This document shows, piece by piece, positions 6,243 to 35,003 of a DNA stretch of 36,479 nucleotides. Below the pieces are notes generated by a model that worked only from the letters and a program-made list of their open reading frames with translations, was not told the DNA's origin and made no database searches. Position 1 is the first letter of the stretch; each line of letters begins with the position of its first letter. Source of the DNA: an uncultured Lachnospiraceae bacterium (GTDB taxonomy: Bacteria > Bacillota > Clostridia > Lachnospirales > Lachnospiraceae); the NCBI GenBank assembly GCA_947588675.1, contig CANPYY010000022.1, positions 1 through 36,479 of the forward strand. The letters run 5' to 3'. The translations under genes were made by a program, and so were the position numbers.

Positions 6243-6274
6243 ATTCCTCTTTCTCCTTTCATCAGTCTCTATAT

Positions 6275-14776: not shown

Positions 14777-15913
14777 TTATTCGGGATATGTTTTTATTGA
14801 CACTACTGCCGGCGGTTTATTTTTCCCGGTTGCCTGAAAAGCAAAATTTATACTTCCGTTTATCTCCACAGCAGCATTCCAACCATATTTGGAAGTAAAA
14901 GTAACCTTATTGCCATTAATATCATAGTTATAATTATCGAATGTGTCAATACTTTCAATGTCATCATCAAATATAACTTCTACACTCCATGGAATAACCC
15001 TTATATCACTAATATTCTTTAATTCCAAACTGAAATGTCTTGTAACATTATGCCAGTCACTTGCAGGAGTAATTACACACGTCAGCAATCCCTCATCTGC
15101 AGGATATGTAGGTTCCGGTGTTTCCGAAGGCTCCAGTGTTTCTGAAGGCGACGGCGTTTCTGAAGGCGACGGCGTTTCTGTTGGCAGCGGAACAGGAGTT
15201 GGCGTTGCAGGCGTCGGATTACCTTCTTCTATAATCTTATCCGTATCATCTTTAAAATTATAACACTCTATGTATCGGGTTGTTTCATATAACCCATATG
15301 CCTCGCTGGCAAGCTTTAATTCTACTTTAATAATATTCCACGGATACTCGTTATAATCAGGGCGCGAAAATTTAAGTCTTTCTATATGGTATCCCTGATA
15401 TGCTTTTTTATCAAATGTCCAGTCTACGGGTTCATACACCGTTTCTCCGCCTGCGCCTGATTTTATCACAAAATAATGAACAATGAGCTGATTATCCCAA
15501 TTTGCCGGATTATCGGCTTCATATGGCATGGCGTCTTCCCTGTCCATGCTCTCGTTATAACGATATGTCATAGGCCGTCCACTGTATATTTTCACAAGGC
15601 TTCCGTTTTCATCACGAAATTCAACAGCTTTACCCAAATCCTGTATTTTCATTGTGCAGGAATCCGTACCTCCTAAGGAATCATACTGTACTCCTGTCAC
15701 CTGTGCGCCCGATAATTCTCCCGCAATTTTATTCATTATAGTATCCGATACCTGTTTCCCATATTCTACGCTTTGTATCTCTGTATATACTTTTATTGCA
15801 GAAGCTACTATCTGACCGGTAAGCACAACAAATATACTGATTAGTGCAAACGTCACTATCAGCTCTACAATTGTTACGCCTTTTTTGTTATGTATAGGAT
15901 TCTTTTTTCTCAT
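14777..15913 (-). CDS. Type IV pseudopilin with Pro/Thr/Ser linker and C-terminal CBM2-like domain
   Basis: The 378-residue product begins with a class III signal: a basic leader ending NKKG, then VTIVELIVTFALISIFVVLT with Glu at position +5, so PilD should cleave after the Gly. A pilin-like region follows to about residue 230. Residues about 230-272 form a Pro/Thr/Ser-rich linker (NPTPATPTPVPLPTETPS and SET repeats). Residues 273-378 resemble a family 2 carbohydrate-binding module: aromatic DWHNV, LELKNIS, IPWSVEVIF, YGWNAAVEI and GSINFAFQATG in CBM2 order. The ATG at 15913 follows GGGGAG at 5 bases; a GTG at 15949 would overlap the upstream gene and lacks a site. It is the last gene of the pilus operon. 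Pilus-linked polysaccharide binding is inferred; the CBM call is by eye. Confidence 0.85.
   Translation of the reverse strand: MRKKNPIHNKKGVTIVELIVTFALISIFVVLTGQIVASAIKVYTEIQSVEYGKQVSDTIMNKIAGELSGAQVTGVQYDSLGGTDSCTMKIQDLGKAVEFRDENGSLVKIYSGRPMTYRYNESMDREDAMPYEADNPANWDNQLIVHYFVIKSGAGGETVYEPVDWTFDKKAYQGYHIERLKFSRPDYNEYPWNIIKVELKLASEAYGLYETTRYIECYNFKDDTDKIIEEGNPTPATPTPVPLPTETPSPSETPSPSETLEPSETPEPTYPADEGLLTCVITPASDWHNVTRHFSLELKNISDIRVIPWSVEVIFDDDIESIDTFDNYNYDINGNKVTFTSKYGWNAAVEINGSINFAFQATGKNKPPAVVSIKTYPE
15120..15190 (-). repeat. 18-bp tandem repeats encoding the SETPSP linker
   Basis: Three 18-bp units (15120-15137, 15138-15155, 15156-15173) and a partial fourth unit lie inside the linker of the CBM-bearing pseudopilin. 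The middle two units are identical. They encode Pro/Ser/Glu/Thr hexapeptides and could change linker length by slippage in steps of six residues. Confidence 0.75.
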
Positions 15914-15941
15914 TTTTCTCCCCTGCCGGAATATCTGCCGC

Positions 15942-16952
15942 TTAATCACTAAGAACCGTCGGCTGCTTTAATGTCATCCAGTGATTTAACGTCAAATCAG
16001 TGTCATAAGGTCCTATATCCTGTCTTGCAAGATGATACTCGCTTCCATCCCAAAACAGTTCTCCTTTTTTAGGTCTTTCTTCATCTTTATCGCTAAAAGT
16101 TTTTATATTGCCGTTATCTTCATAATATTGACGGATATCATCATATGTAAATACTTTTTCGTCTTCCGTAAATTTTACAAAAGCTCCCGGATTATTTTTA
16201 ATAACATCTTCCCTTGTATCCCCGACATTAATCGTCAGTTTCCAGTCATTCCATATACATACGTAAGCTTCTTTCGTTCCATCTTCATTAACAAGGATAT
16301 ATACATGTCCTTCGTCCATTATATAAGTAAAATTCTGTTCTCCGGCAGCCTCCGCCTTATCCATTTCATCTTTAATAGCAGTATCCCAATCATTATATTC
16401 ATATATTTTTTCTTTTTCCCCATTTACTTTTACCTCTATATAAACTCCGCTTCCTGTTGCTCCGGGTTTTGGAGTAGGAGTAGGCGAAGATGATGGCGAT
16501 GGCGCCGGCGATTCAATGGAGTTTCCTGCCGGAGGTATTATAGCTTCCGGCTTCTGTGTAGATACAGGTGCGCCATGATTCGCATATTTCCCTACGCTTA
16601 CCGCATACATATCGTATCCGCCCGGCTCAGCCCAGTATACTATTCCGCTGTTTTCATTTAAAGCAAGCGTTTTTCCGGAAGCTGTTGCATCTTTTGTTTT
16701 ATCCATGTCAACAACAAGTGATAAACGTCCCGCTGTATATGTACGCGCCTCATAATTAGCAGTCTTATAATAGTCGCGGTTAAATTCTTCTGTTTCATCT
16801 ATTATATCCATTGATGCGCCAAATAATTTTGTGGAAACCGATATTATATGTGAAAACGTCGCCGTGACTAAAAGCACGACAATTACCGCCACCAGCACTT
16901 CAATCATGGTAGTCCCGTCTTTAGCCTTAAAACATCTGAGCAGCTTTCTCAT
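15942..16952 (-). CDS. Type IV pseudopilin with Pro/Ser/Thr-rich linker
   Basis: The 336-residue protein carries a class III signal, CFKAKDG then TTMIEVLVAVIVVLLVTATF, with Glu at +5 of the mature form, so it should be processed by PilD and inserted in the pilus base or tip. The first extracytoplasmic part (to about 140) resembles PilV/PilW-type minor pilins. A low-complexity stretch SPAPSPSSSPTPTPKPG (about 148-166) leads to a C-terminal domain of about 170 residues, rich in aromatic and acidic residues (YEYNDWDTAIKDEM, CIWNDWKLTINVGD), that I do not recognise. The start codon overlaps the upstream stop (ATGA), and the downstream pseudopilin begins 28 bases after its stop. Together these indicate one cotranscribed minor-pilin cassette. 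Confidence 0.85.
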   Translation of the reverse strand: MRKLLRCFKAKDGTTMIEVLVAVIVVLLVTATFSHIISVSTKLFGASMDIIDETEEFNRDYYKTANYEARTYTAGRLSLVVDMDKTKDATASGKTLALNENSGIVYWAEPGGYDMYAVSVGKYANHGAPVSTQKPEAIIPPAGNSIESPAPSPSSSPTPTPKPGATGSGVYIEVKVNGEKEKIYEYNDWDTAIKDEMDKAEAAGEQNFTYIMDEGHVYILVNEDGTKEAYVCIWNDWKLTINVGDTREDVIKNNPGAFVKFTEDEKVFTYDDIRQYYEDNGNIKTFSDKDEERPKKGELFWDGSEYHLARQDIGPYDTDLTLNHWMTLKQPTVLSD

Positions 16953-17584
16953 GACGACTCATACTCCTTTCTCCATGTCCATGCGTTACCGTTTTCCGTA
17001 TCCACACTAAGCTCATATTGTGTTGTAACTGTCGTTTCTTCATTATTATCATTACAGGTAACCATTACGGTAAGAATTATACCGTTTTCAGCTTCATCTA
17101 TATTTATATCAGGATTAGTGTTATCGCTTTCCCAATACATCGCAACCGTAGTATTATCCAGCAATTGATTTCCGCCGTCTTTCAGTTTACTGTCAACCCC
17201 GCCAAGCAAAAGAGAGTCAAGTTTAAAATATCTGTAAGCATCTTCTTTTTCATGCCTGTATTTTCCCGGCTCATAATATGGCCATTTTGCAGGAACTACA
17301 TTTCTGTTAGCCGCAATACTTATATTTTCCTTCAGATATTTCCATACAGGATATTCAGATTCATGTCCCGCCTCAGGCGGCAAAACGGTAATTTCTTCAG
17401 TAAGCTGTCTGCTTATAGTCTGCGCCAGTTCCCTGCTCTGCGACAGATTCTGCTGCCTGTTCGCAGTTGCAAACAATGTATAGGAAACCAGCAATAATGC
17501 AAGGGCAAGAAACATCAGCACAATCATAATCACAATTGCAACCATTAGCGCAGAACCGTCTTTTTTATTAAGAATCTTTTTCAT
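16949..17584 (-). CDS. PilX-like minor pseudopilin
   Basis: The 211-residue product starts with a short basic leader KKILNKKDG, then SALMVAIVIMIVLMFLALAL, a hydrophobic helix like that of PilX/GspK-type proteins. It lacks the Glu at +5 found in the other pilins here, as is common for PilX_N-type members. The remainder is an alpha/beta extracytoplasmic region with no recognised domain. The ATG at 17584 follows AAGGAG at 7 bases; the longer frame starts with GTG within the binding site. Its 3' end overlaps the next pseudopilin by 4 bases. It probably primes pilus assembly together with the two downstream pseudopilins; this role is from family knowledge and context. Confidence 0.82.
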   Translation of the reverse strand: MKKILNKKDGSALMVAIVIMIVLMFLALALLLVSYTLFATANRQQNLSQSRELAQTISRQLTEEITVLPPEAGHESEYPVWKYLKENISIAANRNVVPAKWPYYEPGKYRHEKEDAYRYFKLDSLLLGGVDSKLKDGGNQLLDNTTVAMYWESDNTNPDINIDEAENGIILTVMVTCNDNNEETTVTTQYELSVDTENGNAWTWRKEYESS

Positions 17585-17604
17585 CGCCAATCTCCTTTCC
17601 ACTA

Positions 17605-17710: not shown

Positions 17711-20700
17711 TTATATATATCTTCCTGCAACGCTATAAGAGTCCTTATTATAATCTCTTAATGTAACGGTTTTTGTAGTCCAATTATCATTATTCTTTAT
17801 ACGATACCAGTTGCATATCGGAGAACTTTCATATCTTTCAAGATGTTCATCTCCAATCACTGCCGCCTGTACCGACACCTGGGAAGTGTTATAATAATCA
17901 TCCGGATTTTCATATTCCGTTCCGCTAAATGATATCTTTTCAACATCCGGCAATACTATGCCGACAACAGCCTCGTCACCTTTACCGGATTTATAGTACA
18001 GCAATGATACAATATTTATTCCCGTATCATCATCCGAAGATAATGGCACTGAAGCAGATATAGGAAGCTCTACGTAGCCATCCTCCTTTAGTTCGCCGAC
18101 AAATACCGCTGTATCATCCTCTTTGCATACCGGTATATCTTTATTGTCCTGTTTATTATCCGACTGTTCTTCCGCTCTTTTCTTCATTGCCTCCGTAAAT
18201 CCGTCCTCTGATGTTACCGCAAAGACGTTATATACGTTTTTCTTTTCGGAAGGTTCAAGATATATCCAGTCTATATCCTGTTTTGCATATACGGTATCGT
18301 CAAAAGTCTTGTTATTGCTAAGGCTTATCCTCTGAATACGGTAGCTGTCCGCATATTCCATAAATCCAAATTCAAGCGTAGTCTGCGTTACGGTCGCCTC
18401 ATAACCGCCCTTACCGCTTTCTTTACTCCATTTACCGGTATCCATATCATAAAATACTTTAGTCCGGGTTTCTTCCGCTTTAGTTTCATCTACCTGTATT
18501 CTTGGAATACGAATCCAACCGTAATTAATCGTCAGTCCATTTTCATCTTCATCAGACCACCATGAACTTATATTATTATCAGATACATTCCTTAATACAA
18601 TCTTTAACCATTTACCTGCATCGTCGCTGTCAATTCCCGATGCAATATTATAAGAAGCGCTCTTTAGATTACCTTCCATTGCAGTTTGGGATGCTTTAGT
18701 CACAATGGTCTTATATGCGCCTGAGTTCCAGTATGATTTATCCGATGTATCTTTTGCATCTCCCGCTTTCATGCGTATAGTATTCGTCTTATCTTCTTCA
18801 GGCTTATCGTAGACCGCTGCGGCAAGTTCATATCTGCCGCTGCTATCCGTAACGGTATTGTCCTCTAACATAAGTCTGATACCTTTTTCAAATTCTTCCA
18901 TTGTCATATAAGTAACGTCGCCGCTTTCATCATGAGGCATGTATTCCGGATGCGTTATAAGCTTCGTTACATCCGGCGTATGCTGACGTACCGGCAACGT
19001 CATTTCCCTTACAACTCCCTTTATGCCGTCGCGGTAAATTTCAGCGCCATCTTTCGCAATTGCGCGAACCGAGAACCTGAGTTTCTGTCCTCCACTGTAT
19101 CCATTCAAATCAATTGTTTCTTTCATAACATCCGCCGAACTGTCAGCCGGACACATTATCGTATCTTCAGAAACTGTTCCATCATCTTCAAATGCCTCAA
19201 TAAGAATCTCATAATAATTCACTTCATTTCTCTGTGATTCAGGTACAGTATTCCAGCTCATATCATATATCAGGGTATCCTTATCCGTTACGCCATTATT
19301 GCGATGAAGCGATACCGCAGGTCTTGCAATCTGTGAAAACCTTACCCTGACCTTGAAATTTTCTTCGCTGTACGCCGGGAAAATCTCCGTTTTTCCGGTG
19401 CTGTCAGATACGCCCTTTCTTACAACCGATAAGGTAATATCACGATAATTCCAATTATTATTTTTATCTGTAAATGTGTAACTGAACAAAGAATCGCCCG
19501 ATATGTTCTTATCTACGGTAACGGTTTCCAGAAGGACGTCCTGAACAGCCCCTTCATTATTATCTGTATCATATCCTATAAGCTGCAGTTCATATACCGC
19601 ATCTTCATCGGCGCTTCCTTTATCCCAGTAAAACGTATACTTACTGCCGTCATCCGAAAGCAGCATATCTTTTTCAATGACCGGAGGCTTCTGCAGTTTT
19701 CTGCTATAATCCCCCGACGTAATCTTTCCTGACTTACGGTCTACGTTATATACTTTTTCATCAATCTGCCTTCCGTAAATACTCCTGTAATGAAGAATAC
19801 TGTTATAAATTATTGAATAATCTCCATTCCTGTTAAGGCATAATACATAACCGTCATTCAGGGTTTTCTTTCCGTTTACCGTAACAAATACTTTTTCATC
19901 ACGTTTTGTATCCGTAAGCGAACAATCTTTTATATAGTTAATTATTTCTTCTTCAGTGAATGTGTTTTGTTCGCCATTATCTACCGGATGGCCATACCAG
20001 CATATATATGACTGGCTTTTCCACGGGTATGACCTTACCGTAATATCTCCATAGTTGAACATGTCTTTTGGAAGCCTGTTAAGTACGGAAGCAACTTTAC
20101 CGCCGTAAGATGTTACATGCGTATTGCCATTTGCCACCGACACAGGAAGGGTAATCAGTTCCCCTGAGTCATCGGCGCCTACAGGATAATCATTTATGAC
20201 TATCTCCGAATCAACGTATAACTCAGTATTGCTTCCCTCATGTGAATCCAGGTCAATCTGAGTGGATATTTCACCCGGCGCATCGCCCGAAAAATCTTCA
20301 AACACAGTATCCACATAATCCCTGTCTGCAAGCAGCTTATCATCATAAAACGCAAGCATATATGATTTAACCATCGAATCGGTATATTTGTCATTTGCTT
20401 TTGCTTTTATATTAAGCGTGCTGCTGGTTATCTTATTATCTTTCATTTCCGAACTTAAAACAAATGGTTCCGAACGTCCGTCTTCAGTATTAAATTCAAT
20501 CTTATCAGGCGTACCTCTAATTCCGTCAATCGTAATGACAGTCGCCCTGTCGCCGGCATAATCTTCAGGATTATCCAGTATTGCCGTAAATGCCTTATTA
20601 TTACTTTCAGTAGGCGTAAACTCTATATGTACCTGCGGTATAACCTGGTTTGTTTTAAGCGTATCAAATTTTTTCTTAACCCAACTGCCTGTATATGCCT

Positions 20701-23700
20701 CCCCGCCCTGACTGTCAGGTCCGTACATGGCAAGCCATTCCGGGGTTGCAGCCATATTTATATCGTAATTATTTCCATAAGTACGAACTGCTATCTCTAT
20801 ATTTTTACCGCCCATACCGGAGTCGTTTATTATATAACGTTCAACTCCATAGGCTACGTTAAACGGTCCTTTCCATTCCCCGCCTTCTATTCTGTACATT
20901 AACTGATCGCCGGAATATATCCCGTTACTGCCGTCATGTTTCCATTCGACTACAAGGTGTCCGCCTGTATTCGTAACCTTAATACTGTCCAAAGTTATAC
21001 CACAGAGATTGTTTCCTTTATCAAGTCCTGCATAATATGCTTTTACCCTGGGGTCTGTATCCAGATAATGTTTCTGCCTGTATCTTCCTGCATCTCCTGC
21101 AGCATTCATATCTGTAATGGTATAATCATATTTACTTTTAATATCCTTTCTGATATCACTGTTATTAACATCATGTTTCAGCTCTGTAATTATCTTATTA
21201 TTTTTATTATTATAATAAAGATAACGGGAACTGCTGTTACTTCCGTCATAAGTTAGGCCTTTTCCATATTCGGGGTTGTTGTTATTCCGTATTACGTAAT
21301 AGCTTTCCTGCAGTTTTCCCGCAATATTCTTTCCAACAAGACCTAACGGATATTCATTTGCATTAAAGCCAAAGTTAAAGCAATCCCATACCCTCTGTAT
21401 ATTATTACCGTTTCTTACGATTCCTGCATCCTGCTCACTCCTGTTTACATTTCCGTAATTACGGCATCTGTAAAAATAAGCTTCCTGATTATCCGTAGAA
21501 TATGTAATGCCTCCATATTTATTAGTTTCCGCATTAATTGCTCCCGTATTTACACAATCATAATAAGTCACCCTTACTATGGATTCGCTTCCCGCATATC
21601 CCGTTATTCCTCCTGCATTCTGTTTAGCGTTAATATTTCCATGGTTTATACAGGAGTTAAATGTAATATAATCATTCACTTCGCTATTTATCATAAAATT
21701 GGCTACAAGTCCGCCGGCGGCTTTACCGCTGTCGCCTTCGCTTGTTATCGTTCCGTAATTAATACAGCCGTTAAGCGTAAACCCTTTAAATTTAGTACGG
21801 CCTACCGCTCCTGCCGCTATAACTCCAGTAATATCGCCATAATTCTCAAAACCGTTAATTACCATTCCGTTTCTGCTGTTATTCTCAAGACGGCCTATAA
21901 GTCCTGCCACGGCAACATTATCAGAGTTTTTATATTCTGCAGTTACTTTTGCCCGGTTAATACAAAAACTAATGTCGTTCCCCGATATACTGTAACCTAT
22001 AATACCGCCTGTTCCTCCGGTACTTATATACCATTTTGCCAATACTTCCCATTTATCTCCGGTTTCACATCTGTTTATATCGCCGGTGTCCGAAAGTTCT
22101 CCTATAATACCGCCTGTATTTCCTGCATGATTAATTATTTTTACTGTATAGGAGGAAGCCGTATCTTTATTGTATCCGCTATCTTTTACGCTTCCATAAC
22201 TGATTCCGGCAATTCCTCCGACGTATCCCGCCGCAGCATCTCCATTGTCTCGTCCCGATTTTATTTCCGTATTTTTATCCGTTCCAATATAACACTCGGA
22301 AATATCAGAGCCGGTATATAACCTTCCGGCAATTCCTCCTATAGATACCATATTATCTGAAGAACCGTTCGCATTAAGTTCTCCGCTGTATTTGCAGGAG
22401 GATATCTTACCCCTTGCGGTACCCGCTATACCGCCATATCCCGTATCTGAACTTCCCATATTGCCCGATATATCTGCTTTAACAGTACATCCCGTAATAC
22501 TGCCTCCATTCTGAGTGCCTGCAATTCCACCCATATTGGCGTATGAAAGAGCTTTATCGGCAAAACATATCTTAGTATTATCAACTTCTATTGTTTCTGC
22601 CTTACCCTGTGTTTTTCCAAAAGCGCCGCCTATATTTATATTGTTTCCCGATACATAGCTTAATACCTTACTTCCTGACGTATTGCTTACTACAACTTCT
22701 GCCTCCGCTCTATTGATGCCCGCAATACCTCCGATATTGCTTTCTTTTTTACCGCTGTCTTTTGTATTGCATATCTTAACATATTTTACAGTACATTCCT
22801 GAATTGTTCCGCTGCTGTTGTTTCCTGCAATTCCTCCACTATTGTTAAGGCCTTCCACCGTAATATTTTTATCTGTACTTTCACCCTGCGAATCACTGTT
22901 CTTTATTGTCGCTGTATTTAACGCCGCTATACCGCCGGCATCTCCGTTTGCCGACGATACATACCCCTTATTTATACATTTATTTATGATACTTGCATTT
23001 TCAGCAACTATACCGCCGGCGTTTCCCGAAGTCGTTGCAGATATTATTCCGCTGTTCACACAGTTTTCTATCTGTGAGCTGCTGAATCCTGCTATACCAC
23101 CGGCATTTCCTTTCACTGCCGTTACAGTTGCGCGGTTTTCCCATTGTGATATAACGTTAGAAGATTTGTTGTTTCCTATTATGCCTCCCGCCATATCTCT
23201 GCCGGTTATATTTCCTTTAAGCACAAACATACCGGCTTTATTATATGAAACTGAAGCTTCCGGTTCATTTTTTCCTGTAAGCCCTCCAATCTCTCCTTTG
23301 TTTCCCGAGGCATTTACAACTATATCGGCTTCTTTTATATTCTCAAATACTATACTTCCGTAATTATCCGCTGCGATACCTCCTGCATATGAACCGTATG
23401 CTTTAACGTTACCGCCGCTTAGTCTTATATCCGTAATAGTTCCGTAATTCTCAGCCGCTATGCCGCCGACATAGGAATTGCCGGTTACTGTCACATCATC
23501 TGTCAGATAACATCCGGTAATCTTTCCGTTTTTCTTATTGAGTCCCGCTATACCGCCGACGTAATCTTTTTGCGCTCCTCCTATTGCCGATACCGGACAG
23601 TCTTTTACAACGCCTTCATTTACTTCGCATATGCCTCCGAAATATTTTCCTTCATATTTAGCCGTACTTCCCTCCGCGCGATTCTCACATTTTTCAACCA

Positions 23701-26700
23701 CTGCATTTTTAGTTACTTTACTTATAATTCCTCCGCTGTATGAATATGAAATATTATTTTTATCAGAAGGATGTTCATAGTTATTTTGAGTAAATACCGA
23801 TGCAGTTACCGATGTATTATTTATTATATTTTTAATATGCAGCCCGGTATTTCCGGCATTATATCCGACGATACCTCCCGCATATATACATACCGTCAGT
23901 TCTTCTAAACTTGAGGAAGTCATTTTGTCATTTGCGCCGCCTGTAATAACAAGTTTTCCCGCCGAATCCATATAAGATGTTGTATCCATATCCCTTATAT
24001 TTTTTATAACATCTGCATATTTCTCCCTGAGCGTATCAATTACAATTGAATTATCCCATTTATCTGCGTCTGCTTCTTCTTTACATATCTGTCCGGCATA
24101 TTCCGCTGCCTTATCCGCTCCCGCTTCTTTACTAAGAAGATGGTTATATCCTATATATCCTCCTGCAAACGCCTCGGCAGTTACAGAGCCAAGGAAATTA
24201 TTCACCTGAAATTTCACATATACATCATTTTCGGAAAGCGGCACGATATTTCCGCCGATTACGCCTCCCACGCAGAAATCTCCGCTAACCTCGTTAGGAT
24301 TAACCTCTATCGTTTTCTGCAGGGCTGTATTTTCATCGGGGTAAAATAATTCAGCCGATGCGTTAAGCCCGATGAATCCTCCTATGAAAGCTCCCGTTCC
24401 CTTTATATATCCTCCTATAAGATTATATCCTGTAACCCCGGCGCCTTCATCATTATAACCTACAATTCCGCCAACATAATTTTTTCCTGTTACATATGCC
24501 GTTACGTTAGCGTTGTCAGCAGTTACCAATCCTGCATTATAACCGGCTATTCCGCCTGCATAATTTCCTTTGAGTATTTCAAGCTTATCTATGTTATCCG
24601 TTATGCTTCCCGAAGGCGTTTCGCTTATACATTCTTTTATAACCGCTCCTTTTTCATTATATCCCGCTATACCTCCAACATAATTTCCCATTGCAGCCGA
24701 CATTCCCCGGTTATCCCAGTCTGTAAGCGTAACGTTATTGGCTCCGCATACGCCACCGACATATGTATATCCTATTACATTAGTGTCCACAACTCCTTTT
24801 CCGGTAATTTCATTATTACCGGAAAGCTCTGCTGTACCTGCATTTCCATCATTATATCCCGCTATGCCTCCAACATAACTGTAACCGAACAGATAACTGC
24901 TGCTGCCGGCAAGATTCTGTGCATTGCATTTTTCAATCACGGTATTCTTATTATATCCTACAATGCCACCGACATATTGTCCGTTAAGTTTGGATTTAAG
25001 CAATTCATCATCAGAAAATATATCATTAATCTCTGTATCCGTATAATGCGGCGAACCTGTACAGTTCACAAAATGGATTTTATCCTGCGCGGCGTCGTTT
25101 ACCGCATACCCTGCTATACCTCCTATGTACTTATATAGGGTTCTCGCCTCTTTACTGTATTCCGAAACCTCTGCTGCTTTTACTTCTCCGTAATTTTTGC
25201 AGCTATCTATTATTACACCCGCCTGAGAAGCTCCCGGAAGATATATCCTGCCGACGATACCTCCGACGGCTTCCCGTCCGGTAACTTTAGCGCGATTATC
25301 AAGCCTGAGATACATTCTGTTCTCATTATCCATACCCGTTATGTCACTGCCTGCTATACCTCCGACATTACTTTTTCCCTCTATACGGCTTTCCGTACTT
25401 ACATTTCCCGCTCCTGAATTATTAACGGTAAGCGTCAGAAGATTGCCCTCATTATTACCGCAAAAAGCTCCTACGTTATCCGTACCCGACACTTTAACGC
25501 CATCCAAAGAAACATTATTAATAAGTCCCTTATTTACCGCAAATATACCTGCCGGGCCATTATTGTTCATACTTCCTTCAAATCCTGCTGCCGGACCCGT
25601 CCCTGTTTCCGCATACAGAAGCGTATATCTGTTGTCGTCTTCATTAATAACAATATCTTTTATAACTGCCGCCGTAACACTGTTGCTTGTCAAAACGGAA
25701 TCTTTACGAAGCATACCTATAGACGGAAACGGAATATCATCATCCGTTACAGGCTGTATATCATTTGCCGCTTTGCTGTAAATAACTGATTCAATTTCAT
25801 CCGAGCTCTGCAATTCCCTAATCTTACTACTGTAGTATAATCCTTCGTTATTAACAAACTGCTTCCAGCTTATATTTCTGCTTATACGGTATTCCACGCT
25901 TATTCCGGAATATATATCCCCATCCTCAATATAACGCATATTATAAAGATGCCTTCCGTTTGCAACCGTATATACTTTATGTAAACCGGCATTTGTACTT
26001 GTTTCAAAATATACACTGCTGCTGTTGCTTTGTTTTTTTACGGCTGCTTTATATACAGAACCTGCGCCCCCGACAGTACAGTAAATATCATCTGCTATGA
26101 TTCCAAAACGGCTGAAACTATATGTTTTTATATAGTTCTTATATATATCGGAACTTGCACCCGTTTCTTCTGCAGTAAGTTCCGGCATTGCAAATTTATA
26201 CAGTTTTCCTGCCGCAGAAATATCAGCGGCGTCAAGGATAATTCGTATTGTATTATCCTCCGACTGCTCAACAATAACCGGAAACGTCACCGGAGCGCTG
26301 TCATTCATATCTTTAACCCAGCCGGTAACGCCGTCTTCCCTGTATCTTATAATACGGCAGTCAATCTTATTTTTATAATGGCTTCCGGCATACTGAAGCT
26401 TACTTCCGTCAAGCAGTATATCCATACGTTTCATTCCCGTATATTTATCATATAAAGATATAGTATAAGTCATACGGTTAATAGCTTCTCCAACTTCGCT
26501 TATCCTGAAAGACAGGTTAAGCGTTTCTTCATTGTTGAGCCTGACATTATCAAATACCGGTTTTTCAGCATCTGTACCTATAATTTTAGACAGGCTTCCC
26601 ACGCCGTAATAACCGACCATTCTTTCTTCCCTGTAATCGGATTTACGGTTATGGATACTTACCTGTCCGCGTTTGGTATCATTATCCTCATATACAAAAT

Positions 26701-27316
26701 CATATTCGGTGTTTTTTCCGACATTGCTGTAAAATACAGAATAGATTTGTCCGTCGTCCGGAGTAAACTCCACGCAGACGGTCGCTTTTAAAATAGCAGA
26801 ATCATACAGATATGGTACGAGCATGTCATACATCATACGGGTTTCGGATTTGCCTTCCGCAGCCAGCTTATCCGGGTCGTCACAGTATATTTCATAATCC
26901 TTCTCTGTTCCCATTGCATAACATACCGTCCCGGTATATCTGGCAGCTTCCGGTTTTCCCTGCCGTGCAGGCCACAACGTATCAAGCTTTATGACATTTC
27001 CATCCGGACCAACAAGTTTCAGGGCATCAAAATCAATGACATTACGGTAGTTATTACCTGTATCTGTCATTGTTTCCCGTACTTTTGATTCAAGCTGACC
27101 ATGTGCGCTGTATTCTCCTATCTGGTTCTGCGCCACGGAATATAATGTACGCGCATATTCATTCTGCTCTTTAAAGTGAACCCATTTCAACCATGAACTT
27201 ATTCCGAATACGGCAATACCTGCAAGAATCAGAAGTATGCAGATTACCACGATAAGTTCAACCATGGTAAATCCCGCTACATTCTTTTTTCTGCCATTTT
27301 TCATAGAATTTTTCAT
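17711..27316 (-). CDS. Giant type IV prepilin-like surface protein with GLUG repeats
   Basis: At least 3201 residues. The N-terminus is a canonical prepilin: a basic leader ending KNVAG, then FTMVELIVVICILLILAGIA with Glu +5, followed by an amphipathic helix and a pilin-like head to about residue 200. Residues about 610-1940 hold roughly three dozen GLUG-like repeats (YVGGIAGYN, YVGGIVGYN and variants) spaced about 30-40 residues, expected to build a long right-handed beta-helix. From about 2090 to the end there are beta-sandwich, fibronectin-like segments with no sortase motif. PilD should process it. It lies 20 bases after pilT and before three minor pilins, so it may be displayed by the pilus machine as an adhesin. 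The ribosome binding site is weak. The last codons appear frameshifted at an AT tract (17712-17720). Confidence 0.9.
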   Translation of the reverse strand: MKNSMKNGRKKNVAGFTMVELIVVICILLILAGIAVFGISSWLKWVHFKEQNEYARTLYSVAQNQIGEYSAHGQLESKVRETMTDTGNNYRNVIDFDALKLVGPDGNVIKLDTLWPARQGKPEAARYTGTVCYAMGTEKDYEIYCDDPDKLAAEGKSETRMMYDMLVPYLYDSAILKATVCVEFTPDDGQIYSVFYSNVGKNTEYDFVYEDNDTKRGQVSIHNRKSDYREERMVGYYGVGSLSKIIGTDAEKPVFDNVRLNNEETLNLSFRISEVGEAINRMTYTISLYDKYTGMKRMDILLDGSKLQYAGSHYKNKIDCRIIRYREDGVTGWVKDMNDSAPVTFPVIVEQSEDNTIRIILDAADISAAGKLYKFAMPELTAEETGASSDIYKNYIKTYSFSRFGIIADDIYCTVGGAGSVYKAAVKKQSNSSSVYFETSTNAGLHKVYTVANGRHLYNMRYIEDGDIYSGISVEYRISRNISWKQFVNNEGLYYSSKIRELQSSDEIESVIYSKAANDIQPVTDDDIPFPSIGMLRKDSVLTSNSVTAAVIKDIVINEDDNRYTLLYAETGTGPAAGFEGSMNNNGPAGIFAVNKGLINNVSLDGVKVSGTDNVGAFCGNNEGNLLTLTVNNSGAGNVSTESRIEGKSNVGGIAGSDITGMDNENRMYLRLDNRAKVTGREAVGGIVGRIYLPGASQAGVIIDSCKNYGEVKAAEVSEYSKEARTLYKYIGGIAGYAVNDAAQDKIHFVNCTGSPHYTDTEINDIFSDDELLKSKLNGQYVGGIVGYNKNTVIEKCNAQNLAGSSSYLFGYSYVGGIAGYNDGNAGTAELSGNNEITGKGVVDTNVIGYTYVGGVCGANNVTLTDWDNRGMSAAMGNYVGGIAGYNEKGAVIKECISETPSGSITDNIDKLEILKGNYAGGIAGYNAGLVTADNANVTAYVTGKNYVGGIVGYNDEGAGVTGYNLIGGYIKGTGAFIGGFIGLNASAELFYPDENTALQKTIEVNPNEVSGDFCVGGVIGGNIVPLSENDVYVKFQVNNFLGSVTAEAFAGGYIGYNHLLSKEAGADKAAEYAGQICKEEADADKWDNSIVIDTLREKYADVIKNIRDMDTTSYMDSAGKLVITGGANDKMTSSSLEELTVCIYAGGIVGYNAGNTGLHIKNIINNTSVTASVFTQNNYEHPSDKNNISYSYSGGIISKVTKNAVVEKCENRAEGSTAKYEGKYFGGICEVNEGVVKDCPVSAIGGAQKDYVGGIAGLNKKNGKITGCYLTDDVTVTGNSYVGGIAAENYGTITDIRLSGGNVKAYGSYAGGIAADNYGSIVFENIKEADIVVNASGNKGEIGGLTGKNEPEASVSYNKAGMFVLKGNITGRDMAGGIIGNNKSSNVISQWENRATVTAVKGNAGGIAGFSSSQIENCVNSGIISATTSGNAGGIVAENASIINKCINKGYVSSANGDAGGIAALNTATIKNSDSQGESTDKNITVEGLNNSGGIAGNNSSGTIQECTVKYVKICNTKDSGKKESNIGGIAGINRAEAEVVVSNTSGSKVLSYVSGNNINIGGAFGKTQGKAETIEVDNTKICFADKALSYANMGGIAGTQNGGSITGCTVKADISGNMGSSDTGYGGIAGTARGKISSCKYSGELNANGSSDNMVSIGGIAGRLYTGSDISECYIGTDKNTEIKSGRDNGDAAAGYVGGIAGISYGSVKDSGYNKDTASSYTVKIINHAGNTGGIIGELSDTGDINRCETGDKWEVLAKWYISTGGTGGIIGYSISGNDISFCINRAKVTAEYKNSDNVAVAGLIGRLENNSRNGMVINGFENYGDITGVIAAGAVGRTKFKGFTLNGCINYGTITSEGDSGKAAGGLVANFMINSEVNDYITFNSCINHGNINAKQNAGGITGYAGSESIVRVTYYDCVNTGAINAETNKYGGITYSTDNQEAYFYRCRNYGNVNRSEQDAGIVRNGNNIQRVWDCFNFGFNANEYPLGLVGKNIAGKLQESYYVIRNNNNPEYGKGLTYDGSNSSSRYLYYNNKNNKIITELKHDVNNSDIRKDIKSKYDYTITDMNAAGDAGRYRQKHYLDTDPRVKAYYAGLDKGNNLCGITLDSIKVTNTGGHLVVEWKHDGSNGIYSGDQLMYRIEGGEWKGPFNVAYGVERYIINDSGMGGKNIEIAVRTYGNNYDINMAATPEWLAMYGPDSQGGEAYTGSWVKKKFDTLKTNQVIPQVHIEFTPTESNNKAFTAILDNPEDYAGDRATVITIDGIRGTPDKIEFNTEDGRSEPFVLSSEMKDNKITSSTLNIKAKANDKYTDSMVKSYMLAFYDDKLLADRDYVDTVFEDFSGDAPGEISTQIDLDSHEGSNTELYVDSEIVINDYPVGADDSGELITLPVSVANGNTHVTSYGGKVASVLNRLPKDMFNYGDITVRSYPWKSQSYICWYGHPVDNGEQNTFTEEEIINYIKDCSLTDTKRDEKVFVTVNGKKTLNDGYVLCLNRNGDYSIIYNSILHYRSIYGRQIDEKVYNVDRKSGKITSGDYSRKLQKPPVIEKDMLLSDDGSKYTFYWDKGSADEDAVYELQLIGYDTDNNEGAVQDVLLETVTVDKNISGDSLFSYTFTDKNNNWNYRDITLSVVRKGVSDSTGKTEIFPAYSEENFKVRVRFSQIARPAVSLHRNNGVTDKDTLIYDMSWNTVPESQRNEVNYYEILIEAFEDDGTVSEDTIMCPADSSADVMKETIDLNGYSGGQKLRFSVRAIAKDGAEIYRDGIKGVVREMTLPVRQHTPDVTKLITHPEYMPHDESGDVTYMTMEEFEKGIRLMLEDNTVTDSSGRYELAAAVYDKPEEDKTNTIRMKAGDAKDTSDKSYWNSGAYKTIVTKASQTAMEGNLKSASYNIASGIDSDDAGKWLKIVLRNVSDNNISSWWSDEDENGLTINYGWIRIPRIQVDETKAEETRTKVFYDMDTGKWSKESGKGGYEATVTQTTLEFGFMEYADSYRIQRISLSNNKTFDDTVYAKQDIDWIYLEPSEKKNVYNVFAVTSEDGFTEAMKKRAEEQSDNKQDNKDIPVCKEDDTAVFVGELKEDGYVELPISASVPLSSDDDTGINIVSLLYYKSGKGDEAVVGIVLPDVEKISFSGTEYENPDDYYNTSQVSVQAAVIGDEHLERYESSPICNWYRIKNNDNWTTKTVTLRDYNKDSYSVAGRYI
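21500..25480 (-). repeat. GLUG-motif repeat array within the giant pilin-like gene
   Basis: By hand count about 36-38 copies of a GG(I/V)(A/V/I)G core, most preceded by an aromatic or small residue plus V/A and followed by an Asn-containing turn, are encoded here. The units are diverged at both DNA and protein level, so this is an old protein repeat rather than a recent DNA amplification. The array ends are approximate. Confidence 0.85.
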
Positions 27317-27336: not shown

Positions 27337-28389
27337 TTAAAACCCATATTGCTCCAAATCACGTCTGTCGTTGGTATATTCAAATGCCGTCTGCCTGTCT
27401 ATTGTTCCTTCTCGCATAAGGCGCATCAAATCCATATTAAGGGTATGCATCCCCATTGATGCACCCGACTGCATAATGCTTCCCATCTGGTGGCTTTTGT
27501 TTTCACGTATAAGATTCGTAACTGCATCAGTTCCAAGAAGGATTTCTGTTGCCGCCACACGTCCGCCTCCGCCTGCTACAGGCATAAGGCATTGTGTTAT
27601 AACACCTTTTAATACCCCTGCAAGCTGTGTACGCACCTGATTCTGATTACCTGAAGGACAGGCATCTATAACTCTGTCAACAGTCTGTGCTGCGCCCGTA
27701 GTATGAAGCGTTGATAATACAAGATGACCTGTTTCTGCCGCTGTCAGCGCCGCCATTATTGTTTCGTAATCCCTCATTTCCCCTACAAGTATAATATCAG
27801 GGTCCTCACGGAGCGCACTCCTTAATGCCGCCGCAAAGTCTGTTACATCCCTGCCGGTTTCCCTCTGATGAATCAGCGCAAGTTTACTGTCATATGTATA
27901 TTCTATAGGGTCTTCAATCGTAATTATGTGATCCTGCCTTGTCTGATTAATATGCTCAATCATAGCCGCGAGTGTTGTTGATTTACCGCTTCCGGTCGGC
28001 CCCGTAATAAGAACAAGCCCTCTCGGTTCTTCTGCAAGTTTATACAGCAGTTCCGGCATATGAAGCTCATTAAGCGTAGGAATATAATTGTTAAGAAGTC
28101 GTATTGTTGCGGCTATTTTTCCTTTCTGGCGGAAAATGTTTACCCTCTGACGGTTTCCGTCGCTGGTTTCTATAGCAAAATCTATATCAAGTCCTTTGTC
28201 AAAATCTTCCTGCTGTTTTGCGCTTAACAGATTATAAAGCATCTCCGCAGTCTGTTTTTCATCCGGCTGGTCAATTGTCTGCATCAGTTTTCCATGCACC
28301 CTCATCATAAGCGGAAGCCCTGCGGATATATGTATATCCGACGCTTTTTCCCTCCTGCATTCAATAATAAATTCATCTATATCATACAT
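27337..28389 (-). CDS. pilT: Type IV pilus retraction ATPase PilT
   Basis: The 350-residue protein is a hexameric ATPase of the GspE/PilT family; PilT powers pilus retraction, twitching and surface pulling. Visible motifs are the N-terminal KASDIHISAGLPLMMRVHG, Walker A GPTGSGKSTT (130-139), the Asp box TIEDPIEY, Walker B DPDIILVGEMRD and the His box HLVLSTLHTTGA. Near the C-terminus VAATEILLGTDAVTNLIRE is typical of PilT. The length is standard. The ATG at 28389 follows GGGAG at about 7 bases; the longer frame begins with TTG inside pilB. Its place directly before the giant pilin gene suggests that the displayed structure can be pulled back. Confidence 0.96.
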   Translation of the reverse strand: MYDIDEFIIECRREKASDIHISAGLPLMMRVHGKLMQTIDQPDEKQTAEMLYNLLSAKQQEDFDKGLDIDFAIETSDGNRQRVNIFRQKGKIAATIRLLNNYIPTLNELHMPELLYKLAEEPRGLVLITGPTGSGKSTTLAAMIEHINQTRQDHIITIEDPIEYTYDSKLALIHQRETGRDVTDFAAALRSALREDPDIILVGEMRDYETIMAALTAAETGHLVLSTLHTTGAAQTVDRVIDACPSGNQNQVRTQLAGVLKGVITQCLMPVAGGGGRVAATEILLGTDAVTNLIRENKSHQMGSIMQSGASMGMHTLNMDLMRLMREGTIDRQTAFEYTNDRRDLEQYGF

Positions 28390-28435
28390 AGCCAATCTCC
28401 CTTTACTTTTTATTTTAAATATACTATGGACAGCC

Positions 28436-30118
28436 TTATACGTAAGCAACCTTCTTTAATTCTTCAATTGACGAAATTCCTTCTTTTACCATTTTGACCC
28501 CTGCGGCGTGCAGTGTATGCATGTTCTGGTTATTTACTGCATAATCCTGTATTTCTTCGGCGGTAACTCCATCCATAATCATTTTACGTATATTTCTGTC
28601 TATCATAAGCACTTCATGTATTGCCACACGTCCGCGATAGCCTGTATAATTGCATTGCGGACATCCTTTCGGATGCTTAATCTTTATCGGTCCGGTATTC
28701 ATTATTTTCTGTTCTTCCTCGTTTGCCGTTACTTCTTCCGCGCAGTCCGTGCATACTTTTCTCATAAGACGCTGCGCTATAACCCCTACAAGCGAGTTTG
28801 CAACCATATACGGCATAAGCCCCATATCTTCAAGACGTATTACTGAAGATGCAGCGTCATTAGTATGAAGCGTTGAAAATACCAGGTGTCCTGTAATTGC
28901 AGAACGAACAGATATATTAGCCGTTTCAAAATCCCTGGTTTCACCTACCATAATAATATCCGGGTCCTGACGAAGCAGGGCCCTGAGTCCGCTTTCAAAT
29001 GTAAGGCCTGCCTGATTATTTACCTGCGACTGGTTAATCTTAGGAAGATTTTTTTCAACAGGATCTTCTATTGTAGATATATTAACCGCTCTTTTAGACA
29101 GCTCGGAAAGAATCATATACAAAGTAGTGGTTTTACCTGAACCCGTCGGTCCCGTAAAATAAATTATCCCGTTTGGCGAACCGAGCATTGTTTTAAGCTT
29201 TATAAAATCCTCCTCCTGCATACCGAAAGTATCAGGATAATCTATAGGCGCGTTATTGGCAAGAAGTCTGAGAACGGCTTTTTCGCCAAAGACCGTAGGG
29301 ATAACAGACACTCGCAGGTTTACCGGATCTCCTGCAATCTTCATGCGAAAATGCCCATCCTGCGGTATTCTTCGTTCTGCAATATCCATGCCGCCAAGAA
29401 TCTTGATACGTGCGATAAGCGATGCATGAATATTTTTCTGCAATGTTACAAATTCTACAATTATACCGTCTATACGCATACGTACCGTAGTTTTATCTTC
29501 AAACGGTTCTATATGTATATCAGAAGCATGTGTCGCATAAGCGCGCTCCACAAGGCGGTTAAGCAGATTGATGACCGGAGTATCGTCATCACCTTCTTCA
29601 TCAATATTAAATTCGTCTGAATCCGCTATCTGCTCAAAGCTTTCATTGGCAATGCTTGCCGCATTTCTCGCCTGTATTTCACTGTAATAAAAGTTTATTG
29701 CGTTTTTAAGTTCTTTCCTCTGGCATAATACTATCTCCATCTGCATACCGGTAGTCTGATGTATATCTTCAATTCCATAAAAATTTAACGGGTCATTTAC
29801 AACTACAGTAAGCATTCCTTCCTGCATCTTAATGGCAAGCATTTCATACTTCTCTGCAAGAGGCCTGGGTATTTTCTTTACAGCCTCTAAATCTACATCT
29901 TCGCCGGATATGTCAATAACCCGTTCGTTAAGCTGCTCCGCCAAAGCTCCGAGCACCTTATCTTCCGTTACAAATCCCATCTCTATCAGCGCGCCGCCAA
30001 GACGCAGCCCTTTGTGCGTTTTCTGATAATCAAGAGCCTGCGTAATCTGGTCGTCCGTAACGTATCCATATTCTTTTAACACATCTCCTATTCGGAGATT
30101 TCTGAAATTATTTTCCAT
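28436..30118 (-). CDS. pilB: Type IV pilus assembly ATPase PilB
   Basis: The 560-residue ATPase drives pilin polymerisation at the cytoplasmic face. The N-terminus has two consecutive MshEN-type motifs, RIGDVLKEYG...LDYQ (9-32) and RLGGALIEMG...LAEQ (39-62), the pattern known to bind cyclic di-GMP. The core contains Walker A GPTGSGKTTT (323-332), IEDPVE, Walker B DPDIIMVGETRD and HLVFSTLHTND. Four cysteines in CTDC and CPQC near residues 470-505 form the usual zinc site of PilB/GspE. The ATG at 30118 lies just after GGTGGA; the longer frame starts with TTG within that site. The gene follows pilO by 36 bases. Confidence 0.96.
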   Translation of the reverse strand: MENNFRNLRIGDVLKEYGYVTDDQITQALDYQKTHKGLRLGGALIEMGFVTEDKVLGALAEQLNERVIDISGEDVDLEAVKKIPRPLAEKYEMLAIKMQEGMLTVVVNDPLNFYGIEDIHQTTGMQMEIVLCQRKELKNAINFYYSEIQARNAASIANESFEQIADSDEFNIDEEGDDDTPVINLLNRLVERAYATHASDIHIEPFEDKTTVRMRIDGIIVEFVTLQKNIHASLIARIKILGGMDIAERRIPQDGHFRMKIAGDPVNLRVSVIPTVFGEKAVLRLLANNAPIDYPDTFGMQEEDFIKLKTMLGSPNGIIYFTGPTGSGKTTTLYMILSELSKRAVNISTIEDPVEKNLPKINQSQVNNQAGLTFESGLRALLRQDPDIIMVGETRDFETANISVRSAITGHLVFSTLHTNDAASSVIRLEDMGLMPYMVANSLVGVIAQRLMRKVCTDCAEEVTANEEEQKIMNTGPIKIKHPKGCPQCNYTGYRGRVAIHEVLMIDRNIRKMIMDGVTAEEIQDYAVNNQNMHTLHAAGVKMVKEGISSIEELKKVAYV

Positions 30119-30154
30119 ACTATCCACCAAATTTCAAAAATCTTTTTGTCTTAT

Positions 30155-30877
30155 CTACTGTAACGGCTCAGTTGTTGCTTCCGCAGTCTGGCCGGCTTTT
30201 TCTTCTGCCTCAGCCTTTGCCTGTAATTCTTTCTGTTTTGCAATATAGGTATCTATATCCTCACACATATACAGATTAACTGATAATGCAAGAGAATATG
30301 GATTATTGTTTATGGAACTGTTCTCGTTTAAGGAAAAACTAATGACCTGCTGTTTTGGCCGTTCCGCCATGCACATATCAATCATATTCTGCAATTCTTT
30401 CCGATTTCCGCTTAACGTCATGTCCACCTTAACACAGTAGGTCCCGTCATACCCTGCCGCCTCTGACTGTGTGGAAGTACCCTCTGCCAGAAAAATATCA
30501 TTATATGAATTTACCGCTGCATATGTTTCCATATCAGGCATAGTAATTTGGAGGTTTTCAACATAGGCGTTATTTTTAAGGGCTATTCCCGTCATAAGAC
30601 GGTCTATATCCTGGCTTCCCATAAGCGGGTAATAGGTACTGCTAAGCATTCCGTATTGTGAAAACACTTCCTCCTGTCTTCCAAGCAGTCCCGGATATCC
30701 GCCAACCTTAACTTCCTTCTCCTGTTTAACAAGCTGCTCCGTAACAATATCATCGCTAAGTTTTCTGCCTTTATCTATAAGCGGCATAAGCGCCAGAAAC
30801 ACCAAAAGTACAAGCACTACAATTGTAGCACCTATAACAATTATCTTTTTATCCCTTTCCGTTATTTCAAGCGTCAA
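30155..30877 (-). CDS. pilO: PilO-like type IV pilus alignment subcomplex protein
   Basis: This 240-residue bitopic membrane protein has a short cytoplasmic N-terminus (TLEITERDKKI), one transmembrane helix (IIVIGATIVVLVLLVFLALM), a coiled-coil-prone segment to about residue 60 and a small ferredoxin-like extracytoplasmic domain. This matches PilO in size and order, although sequence conservation is weak. PilO pairs with PilN to align PilM and the motor with the pilin platform. The likely start is TTG at 30877, overlapping the stop of the pilM-pilN gene by 4 bases (TTGA), so translation is probably coupled. The C-terminal tail is Ala/Glu/Thr-rich. Assignment rests on topology and position between the pilM/N and pilB genes. 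Confidence 0.8.
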   Translation of the reverse strand: MTLEITERDKKIIVIGATIVVLVLLVFLALMPLIDKGRKLSDDIVTEQLVKQEKEVKVGGYPGLLGRQEEVFSQYGMLSSTYYPLMGSQDIDRLMTGIALKNNAYVENLQITMPDMETYAAVNSYNDIFLAEGTSTQSEAAGYDGTYCVKVDMTLSGNRKELQNMIDMCMAERPKQQVISFSLNENSSINNNPYSLALSVNLYMCEDIDTYIAKQKELQAKAEAEEKAGQTAEATTEPLQ

Positions 30878-32421: not shown

Positions 32422-32440
32422 TCTTTGCTTCTCCTTTTTA

Positions 32441-34553: not shown

Positions 34554-35003
34554 TTATCCCTCATATACATGCGTTCTCCGGTAAATTGTCCATTCACCGT
34601 TTTCCTCTCCTTCGTCTTTTTCATATCTTATCAGATATCTTTTTTCAGTGTATGTCATACTCATTACACTTCCTGTGGTCCGGTCCCACGCTGTAAGTTT
34701 TATCTCTCCTTCTGCCCCGGAATAGGATTTTATTTGTTCCTCCGCTTCTTCAGACAACCCGCTGGGCCTCGAGTTGTCAAGAAACGGTATTTGTTGTCCA
34801 TCTAACATGACAGACAATAATTCTATGTTTAGTTGTACGTTTTTTGCATTTCTGAAAACGCCATGCATCTCTATCGATGCCGTCCAATACCATAGCAGTG
34901 GTGCAAGAACTGCTATACAGATGATTATCGTTATTACTGCTGCTTTTACTGCCCTTTTAAATTTATTAACCCTGGTCAGAGTTTCATAATCACGAGTTTT
35001 CAT
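34554..35003 (-). CDS. Small single-TM protein of unknown function
   Basis: I do not recognise this 149-residue protein. A basic N-terminus of 18 residues (TRVNKFKRAVK) precedes one hydrophobic helix (AAVITIIICIAVLAPLLWYW, about 21-40). The rest (about 108 residues) should be outside the membrane and contains two or three beta-rich stretches, ending RYLIRYEKDEGEENGEWTIY. There is no lipobox and no class III signal. The ATG is 12 bases after AAAGGAG. It lies in a separate unit between a gene remnant and a terminator, just upstream of pilD, so a pilus-related accessory role is possible but unproven. Confidence 0.75.
   Translation of the reverse strand: MKTRDYETLTRVNKFKRAVKAAVITIIICIAVLAPLLWYWTASIEMHGVFRNAKNVQLNIELLSVMLDGQQIPFLDNSRPSGLSEEAEEQIKSYSGAEGEIKLTAWDRTTGSVMSMTYTEKRYLIRYEKDEGEENGEWTIYRRTHVYEG

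Follow-up and report, generated by a model that had tools for sequence, protein, structure and literature searches.

What is a prepilin about 20 times the usual size of a pilus subunit doing in a type IV pilus (T4P) operon? The question is raised by a stretch of 36,479 nucleotides (contig CANPYY010000022.1, assembly GCA_947588675.1) from an uncultured Lachnospiraceae bacterium, which was analysed as a whole and is called the window here. Our analysis supports the view that its 3201-residue product is a genuine pilin module fused to a giant beta-helical protein in a T4P operon. We further consider it fairly probable that the giant is a modular core minor pilin, occupying the H slot of a type IVa pilus (T4aP) that can be retracted, with a C-terminal extension of ~2960 residues, made of a beta-solenoid and Fn3-like domains, that would serve as an adhesin at the pilus tip. 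Below, P0001 denotes the giant of the window and G000 the window's own genome; other G and L numbers label the genomes and loci of relatives.

A pilin module at the start of a giant frame

The gene is a single frame on the minus strand (17711-27316), with 3201 codons from one ATG to one stop. A preliminary description of the locus had reported a prepilin-like protein of this length in a T4P operon; we confirm the single frame and add the strand, which was missing. The canonical class III signal with Glu at +5 was also borne out: it reads AGFTMVELIVV, and the N_methyl family (PF07963) matched with 27.4 bits in the genome search, over the cut-off, and with 19.3 bits by hmmscan (cut-off 21.2). 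Signal and N_methyl match mark residues 1-15 as the leader peptide (27272-27316, minus strand), with a predicted prepilin peptidase site at Gly15/Phe16. The mature protein would have a mass of 346 kDa, an isoelectric point (pI) of 4.8 and a net charge (K+R-D-E) of -110. It is not an assembly artefact, because single-frame homologues are also present in records without the label of a metagenome-assembled genome (Eubacterium sp. MSJ-21, Diplocloster agilis and Lachnospiraceae AC2029).

Residues 1-1000 were modelled with AlphaFold from 17 sequences, with a mean predicted local distance difference test score (pLDDT) of 82.8. The pilin module, residues 16-240 (26597-27271, minus strand), appears in the model as a 54-residue alpha1 helix (18-71) followed by a beta head, and a profile of 17 giants, compared with solved pilins, matched PilE1 of Streptococcus sanguinis best (E 6.9e-8), in its alpha1 part. 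Residues 242-249 (26570-26593, minus strand), one of several low-confidence stretches in the model, have a pLDDT below 50 and are read as a linker at the junction of pilin module and extension. With alpha1 and a class III signal the protein has the anatomy of a type IV pilin, and with a pilin module, a short linker and a non-pilin module it has that of a modular pilin.

Repeats and fold of the extension

The preliminary description had counted about 36-38 GG(I/V)(A/V)G repeats. The repeats are present, but the count was too high: the strict motif GG[IV][AV]G occurs 17 times (mean of 0.1 in 1000 shuffles, never more than three), a looser GG-type motif 28 times (shuffle mean 0.8, never more than four) and the loosest 32 times, between residues 616 and 1925. 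The search for GLUG (PF07581) proposed with that count gave scores of 21.9-23.4 bits, over the cut-off, at three sites of the frame, but hmmscan of the whole protein gave just 14.9 bits, under the cut-off. After the linker, the AlphaFold model continues with a beta-rich domain at residues 255-418 (26063-26554, minus strand), read from its secondary structure as a beta-sandwich, and with a beta-solenoid from residue ~440. We place the putative GLUG beta-solenoid at residues ~440-1990 (21347-25999, minus strand); it is modelled up to residue 1000, and the motifs reach to 1925.

When the N-terminal model was compared with the PDB by Foldseek, the sole match under E 0.001 was 3n6z, a putative IgA1 protease (E 3.3e-4), with low template modelling (TM) scores of 0.16 by query and 0.39 by target. 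The three PF07581 matches over cut-off, the solenoid model and the 3n6z match are the features expected of a GLUG beta-helix. The protease match would also suit an ordinary GLUG surface protein or an M26-type peptidase with an accidental pilin start, a reading that we disfavour and regard as very improbable: no peptidase family in Pfam or NCBIfam matched the giant at E ≤ 0.05, conservation is highest in the pilin module in five of six pairs (G024/G341 being the exception), and this module exists alone in the same slot of some relatives, as described below. A PDB sequence search with the whole giant also returned TATA-binding protein matches at residues 1098-1182, which were weak and chance-like and were rejected.

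The C-terminal part, residues ~2100-3201 (17714-21019, minus strand), had been called fibronectin-like; this found some support in fold comparisons but none in the sequence of the window's protein. An AlphaFold model of residues 2005-3201 was poor (pLDDT 61). In Foldseek it was best matched by receptors with multiple immunoglobulin (Ig) or Fn3 domains, by fragments of fibronectin type III and by further beta-sandwich proteins with several domains, alpha2-macroglobulins among them. The lowest E was 1e-11, but the TM-scores, normalised by query length, were only 0.08-0.17. By hmmscan there was no Fn3 match in the window's giant and one of 13.7 bits, under the cut-off, in one relative; three other giants gave only N_methyl, GLUG and sub-threshold Fn3 and CBM_2. 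This part aligns with five relatives at 22-49% identity and may be a row of tandem Ig/Fn3-like domains.

The giant in the putative H slot of the minor pilin set

In the order of transcription, the operon encodes a 149-aa membrane protein, PilD, PilC, PilM-like and PilO-like proteins, PilB, PilT, the giant and three minor-pilin-like proteins, X, V and W, which agrees with the position between pilT and three minor pilin genes given earlier. X (16949-17602, minus strand) has no Glu at +5, as is the case in its homologues, and is K-like. V (15942-16952, minus strand) has the class III signal GTTMIEVLV and a conserved place in the gene order; it is I-like by elimination, as W (14777-15949, minus strand) is J-like. 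W matched N_methyl (19.5 bits) and, at residues 296-380, CBM_2 (22.1 bits, cut-off 24), both just under the cut-off.

The neighbourhood of the giants was examined at 60 loci, which hold 64 frames of 1400 aa or more. The slots were labelled with hidden Markov models (HMMs) seeded with the window's genes, and these labels may cross-react among pilins. Six loci on the same contigs as G regions (L092, L093, L094, L100, L101 and L105) were dropped from the slot, tree, tail and +5 counts, and the motif count left out three open reading frames (ORFs; L124, L129 and L133). Within four ORFs of the giant, X was present in 55 cases, V in 49, W in 55 and all three in 47; 50 of the 64 frames have a machinery gene no more than six ORFs away. 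Among the homologues next to giants, none of 53 for X (one with an unreadable motif) and 50 of 53 for W (three unreadable) have Glu or Asp at +5; all 64 giants have it, but there the selection pattern required it. According to the available text of PMC9934059, the K subunit of the HIJK set is the minor pilin that lacks Glu5 and occupies the extreme tip. With X as K, and V and W taken as I and J, the giant would fill the remaining H position.

An alternative is a stationary surface protein, in which alpha1 only anchors the giant and the extension, tens of nanometres long, spans the wall by itself without involvement of the pilus machine. A solenoid rises ~0.5 nm per coil, and an Fn3 domain adds ~4 nm; with these general sizes laid on the models, the extension could be ~60 nm long, enough to span a Gram-positive wall. 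A membrane anchor, moreover, needs no sorting motif, and an LPxTG tail or a second hydrophobic segment was found in none of the 64 giant frames (G355, of 1681 aa, is cut before the tail). Against this stand the location of the gene in a pil operon with the core minor pilins in the 47 frames just mentioned and the nature of the short orthologues, which are plain pilins in the same slot. We therefore regard the stationary protein as unlikely.

The CBM_2 hint in W was not repeated in W of G001, G003 and G045. In G011, V and W both matched Flg_new over the cut-off, and W also had a sub-threshold match to MucBP. Such matches are leads towards glycans or mucin only. The V and W pilins of some relatives are enlarged, up to 629 aa.

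Bare pilins in the same slot

In four genomes the slot holds a bare pilin: 213 aa in G201, 237 in L107, 198 in G186 and 204 in G403. X follows directly in all four, at a spacing of 63 nt or less, the contig of G403 ending inside X. In G201 the order is major pilin, D, C, M, O, B, H, X, V and W, and pilT is absent from that stretch. The short H pilins match only positions 6-234 of the 497-position N-terminal profile of the giants (E 5e-35 to 2e-58), and their ends correspond to P0001 residues 210 (G201), 242 (L107), 238 (G186) and 212 (G403). N_methyl alone exceeded its Pfam cut-off in these proteins, and the PDB sequence matches of the giants' profile lay mainly in alpha1. The four stretches contain no ORF with two or more GG-type motifs and no match to the repeat HMM better than E 0.8.

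For a tree of the pilin modules, seven rows with short or weak profile matches were dropped beforehand. Five short rows, namely these four and an interrupted one from G384, are scattered among the giants and correspond to five changes, at least four of them forced by well-supported branches; the branches of G403 and G186 are long, and the latter joins the long row G088. Repeated loss of the extension would be the simplest reading of this tree, although it is not proven. Since the slot is kept filled by a bare pilin, the extension appears to be dispensable for keeping the operon. At the G384 locus (L225, 9823-11204), a 338-aa frame with the pilin start of a giant is followed by a short ORF, by eye similar to a transposase; this giant was probably broken by an insertion element.

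A divergence break at the seam

G021 and G338 belong to the same genus. Over 5 kb upstream of the giant their 250-nt segments are 88-99% identical, and over codons 1-240 their 60-nt segments are 87-100% identical, one segment just before the ATG being at 70%. Identity then falls to 80% at nt 720-780 and 72% at nt 780-840, and lies at 53-73% thereafter. The synonymous difference increases from 0.19 in codons 1-240 to 0.61 in codons 251-490 (Fisher p 1.4e-14) and amounts to 0.67-0.69 from codon 481 on, and to 0.62, 0.78 and 0.56 in X, V and W. Upstream, PilB, PilT, PilO and PilM are at 0.09-0.18; among housekeeping genes, miaB is at 0.22 and two aspS-like genes are at 0.18 and 0.11. Three fast-evolving ORFs nearby (0.32-0.36) lie above the upstream operon and below the block. 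Identity of ~90% comes back in patches of 267-446 nt from 11.2 kb after the giant start, with rearrangement. A threefold rise in synonymous change is not what faster evolution driven by selection would produce, so the ~8.9-kb extension, together with the three minor pilins, has another history than the upstream operon, whether by exchange or as an old pair of alleles.

Eleven pairs were tested in total; they share sequences and are not independent. Besides G021/G338, the break was strong in G000/G003 (p 1.5e-6) and G000/G001 (p 1.3e-5). In G001/G003 it was local (p 2.2e-4), ending near codon 440, and weak breaks were seen in G024/G341 (p 0.003) and in two comparisons of G212/G428 (p 0.0005 and 0.001), which are near saturation. 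In the window's own comparisons the synonymous difference rises from 0.43 to 0.69 (G001) and from 0.48 to 0.75 (G003), a weaker break that is partly masked by saturation. The linker at 242-249 is close both to where the short forms end (210-242) and to the break (240-260).

Distribution among relatives

Those counts in this section that come from listed profile matches are lower bounds; long frames were selected, so that broken or split giants are under-counted, and many loci of relatives are metagenome bins. A search with the first 600 residues found matches in 19 of 98 related genomes, the window's own among them, and in 13 of the 19 a match lies in a frame of more than 2000 aa. In a BLAST ranking, P0001 was followed by eight entries (two of which are the same locus) at 37-49% identity, with essentially end-to-end alignments except for the lowest, G045, which aligned in three pieces. 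A profile search matched 183 of 396 genomes of the family, and most of the listed matches are small pilins. Among the listed matches, frames of at least 1000 aa occur in at least 50 of the 396 genomes and frames of at least 2000 aa in at least 39; pilin-started frames of at least 1000 aa occur in at least 48, because the listed matches of G165 and G300 do not include the pilin start. In G411 and G415 the matched part is interrupted by a stop. The survey suggested in the preliminary description thus shows that N_methyl giants beside pil genes recur in the family and that the window's protein is not unique. It had also named separate genes for the pilin start and the repeats as an arrangement that would speak against a fusion. 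The fusion was not refuted in this way: many homologues are single frames, and the four loci with a bare pilin gave no sign of a separate repeat ORF in the stretches described above. Between G000 and G001, the ratio of nonsynonymous to synonymous divergence was 0.19-0.28 along the whole gene, with synonymous sites near saturation.

The largest giant is a single-frame prepilin of 7662 aa with 59 GG-type motifs and adjoining pil genes (G207:C19, ~310577-333565, minus strand, L200-L201). A profile scan of contigs gave 80 loci, the lower-scoring of which are mostly small pilins sharing only alpha1; in a scan of genome contigs with the whole giant, four stretches fitted a pattern and none was confirmed. 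Phylum-wide, 288 of 398 genomes matched the profile, nearly all listed matches being small pilins that share alpha1. As frames of at least 1000 aa were among the listed matches of just four genomes (G000, G208, G628 and G782), giants of this family seem to cluster in the window's order, with a profile that is biased to this family.

Some loci hold more than one large frame. Two tandem giants of 3220 and 3165 aa (L187-L188, G212:C36) are 88% alike in the pilin module and 52% at residues 2001-2500, as expected of a diverging duplication. Directly upstream of the giant, L102, L103, L104, L105 and L109 carry a second large prepilin of 1129-2082 aa with a major-pilin-like start and 0-2 GG-type motifs; another is present in G416, and large frames at the same place are cut by the end of the stretch in G397, G193 and G160. 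Judged by their sequences, loci with such a second prepilin have two giant pilins per operon. The window's genome itself contains a second GLUG-bearing frame of 646 aa (L001, G000:C14:16097-16171).

The pilus machinery

The genes upstream of the giant are all on the minus strand. They encode the retraction ATPase PilT (27337-28449; TIGR01420, 436 bits, cut-off 319), the extension ATPase PilB with an MshEN domain (28436-30130; HMM matches), a PilO/GspM-like protein (30155-30877; position and a weak GspM match, E 0.034), a PilM-like protein (30874-32508; weak PilM matches) that is perhaps fused to a PilN-like part, as read from a later hydrophobic segment, the platform protein PilC/GspF (32441-33637; HMM matches), the prepilin peptidase PilD (33651-34436; A24_N_bact and Peptidase_A24 over cut-off) and the 149-aa membrane protein (34554-35003), which has one helix and is conserved in T4P operons of relatives. 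Comparison with relatives indicates that pilM and pilT probably begin ~54 and 20 codons further downstream than listed. In PilB, MshEN (54.8 bits) and the cyclic di-GMP (c-di-GMP) motif NF053729 (58.6 bits) were both over the cut-off, so that pilus extension may be under c-di-GMP control.

The preliminary description had proposed that the machinery builds or anchors a giant beta-helix adhesin, perhaps as a short pseudopilus that, like a piston, solely extrudes and retracts one giant stalk. The beta-helix and the pilin module stand; the pseudopilus does not fit the genome well. Both PilT and PilB are present and the window itself lacks a major pilin, as this proposal would have it, but a 166-aa major-pilin candidate is found on contig C5 of the same genome, and such a candidate adjoins the operon in G003, G021 and G045. 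Besides the window's PilT, the other frames of the genome over the T2SSE cut-off have 416, 416, 416 and 360 aa; as none has the size of a T4aP PilB, the window's machine probably builds the pili. The neighbouring minor pilins, too, look like the tip set of a normal T4aP. We hold the pseudopilus to be improbable, more so than the stationary protein.

Outside the operon, the window encodes at 4555-6287 what we take, by eye, to be an XRE-like regulator, followed by a protein with presumed peptidase-like (HELCHH) and Fic-like (HPFGDGNGR) motifs.

A proposed mechanism

The pilin module, its approximate border, the gene slot, the conservation as one frame, the absence of the extension in some relatives, the cassette-like divergence in one pair and the ratio of nonsynonymous to synonymous divergence in G000/G001 are computed results. 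From these we infer the processing, tip location, surface exposure, adhesion, wall passage and retraction of an H-slot tip pilin as follows. The giant chain would be inserted in the membrane by alpha1, and PilD would cleave the leader after Gly15. The extension would fold outside the membrane into a beta-sandwich, a GLUG beta-solenoid of ~1500 residues and a row of Fn3-like domains, while the pilin module would join X (K-like), V (I-like) and W (J-like) in a filament-priming complex. PilB and PilC would then add major pilin below, pushing the extension through the cell wall, and PilT would pull back once the extension has bound. The extension would be an effector rather than a scaffold, apparently exchanged at the point where it meets the pilin module.

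In favour of this proposal we also count that the window's genome has a major-pilin candidate, PilD, PilB and PilT and no PF05567 (PilY1) match at E ≤ 1, and that the 64 giant frames, one of them cut before the tail, show neither LPxTG nor a second hydrophobic segment. Several observations weigh against it. A position of the giant at the tip rather than in the shaft is deduced from its neighbours, its probable membership in the HIJK tip set follows from slot and elimination rather than from a structural match to GspH or FimU, and V and W are taken to be I- and J-like by order alone. V homologues have Glu or Asp at +5 in only 25 of 48 cases (three unreadable). At least one of X, V and W is missing within four ORFs of 17 of the 64 frames, in some cases by a contig end or a missed label, and two or three are missing in G035, G081, G207 (twice), G252, G355 (twice), L113 and L118. 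For the extension, the GLUG scores are modest, the Foldseek TM-scores low and the C-terminal model weak. As to exchange, four of the 11 pairs showed no break: G414/G001, G193/G416, G160/G397 (saturated or nearly equal) and G388/G147.

A further-reaching proposal, which we put forward tentatively and consider somewhat more doubtful than likely, is that the T4P tip of Lachnospirales is a horizontally exchanged cassette. The H pilin module would stay with the host machine, and recombination at the seam would replace the extension together with K, I and J. Every filament would then bear a single giant tether, of 346 kDa in the window and of up to 7662 residues in relatives, pushed through the peptidoglycan and retracted. 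If true, this would amount to a serotype-like switch of the binding target of the pilus. The pilus may act as a fishing line, with the giant extension as a hook that is very large and can be replaced. If the tip model is right, it shows to what lengths a pilus machine can be taken for display in monoderm gut bacteria, it makes pilus passage through thick peptidoglycan testable with a tip cargo of 346 kDa, and it offers natural variants without extension or with a swapped one for experiments.

Comparison with known systems

In an open-access literature search we found no description of giants of this kind, most matching papers being judged by their title listing. The length limit of PilFind is 350 residues, so surveys using it would exclude the giants of the at least 48 genomes counted above. 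The statement in the preliminary description that no described system works this way was nevertheless too strong, given the modular tip pilins PilB and PilC of S. sanguinis and ComZ of Thermus.

As far as the available text of PMC8179133 and PMC9934059 goes, PilB and PilC of S. sanguinis resemble the giant in having a small pilin module with a C-terminal functional module. Both systems are monoderm T4aP without PilY1, and both have a proposed tip complex that includes a minor pilin without Glu5. PilY1 is described as absent in monoderms in the same text of PMC9934059, and PF05567 matched neither the six frames of the window's genome (E ≤ 1) nor the giant (E ≤ 0.05). PilB and PilC have 50.5 and 52.8 kDa and one von Willebrand factor A (vWA) or lectin module (PMC8179133, PMC9934059, available text). 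The giant, in contrast, has 346 kDa when mature, carries a beta-solenoid and a row of Fn3-like domains and occupies an H slot, with K-, I- and J-like pilins as neighbours. We take IPR011493 to be the GLUG entry. The pair IPR012902-IPR011493, in which N_methyl precedes that entry, is mentioned in the survey of 264 architectures in the available part of PMC8179133, where IPR011493 is read as a peptidase module of the M26 type. An 860-residue protein with 12 domain copies is named there as the extreme among multi-domain cases, and that part of the survey is silent on slot, size series and exchange.

The nearest solenoid precedent, judging from the available text of PMC6561018, is ComZ of Thermus thermophilus, a minor pilin with a beta-solenoid that is argued to be at the tip and that binds DNA. 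By analogy, the giant might be a DNA-uptake receptor, but we think this has only a slight chance, about as remote as that of the pseudopilus or a little more so. The mature giant is acidic, as are all 64 giants by net K+R-D-E count; and ComZ, a protein of 554 residues from a diderm, has its solenoid between the last two strands of the pilin fold (PMC6561018, available text), whereas that of the giant follows the pilin fold.

Other tips share the principle of display. In the available text of PMC10191384, PilY1 is a large tip adhesin displayed by the core minor pilins HIJK; it is a separate, non-pilin protein, whereas the adhesin-like part of the giant is fused to a core pilin and lacks the PF05567 beta-propeller of PilY1/PilC adhesins. 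The LPxTG tail of sortase-anchored adhesins is likewise absent from the giant and the 63 further frames, one of them cut before the tail. The Kil Tad pilus of Myxococcus xanthus, as presented in the available part of PMC12075869, also has exchangeable minor-pilin tip complexes that expose variable domains; there, four tips are used in combination in one cell, whereas the type found in the window has one locus whose alleles differ between species. In anatomy and proposed mode of working the giant resembles the modular pilins of PMC8179133; it differs from them in scale, type of extension, H slot and evidence for exchange at the seam.

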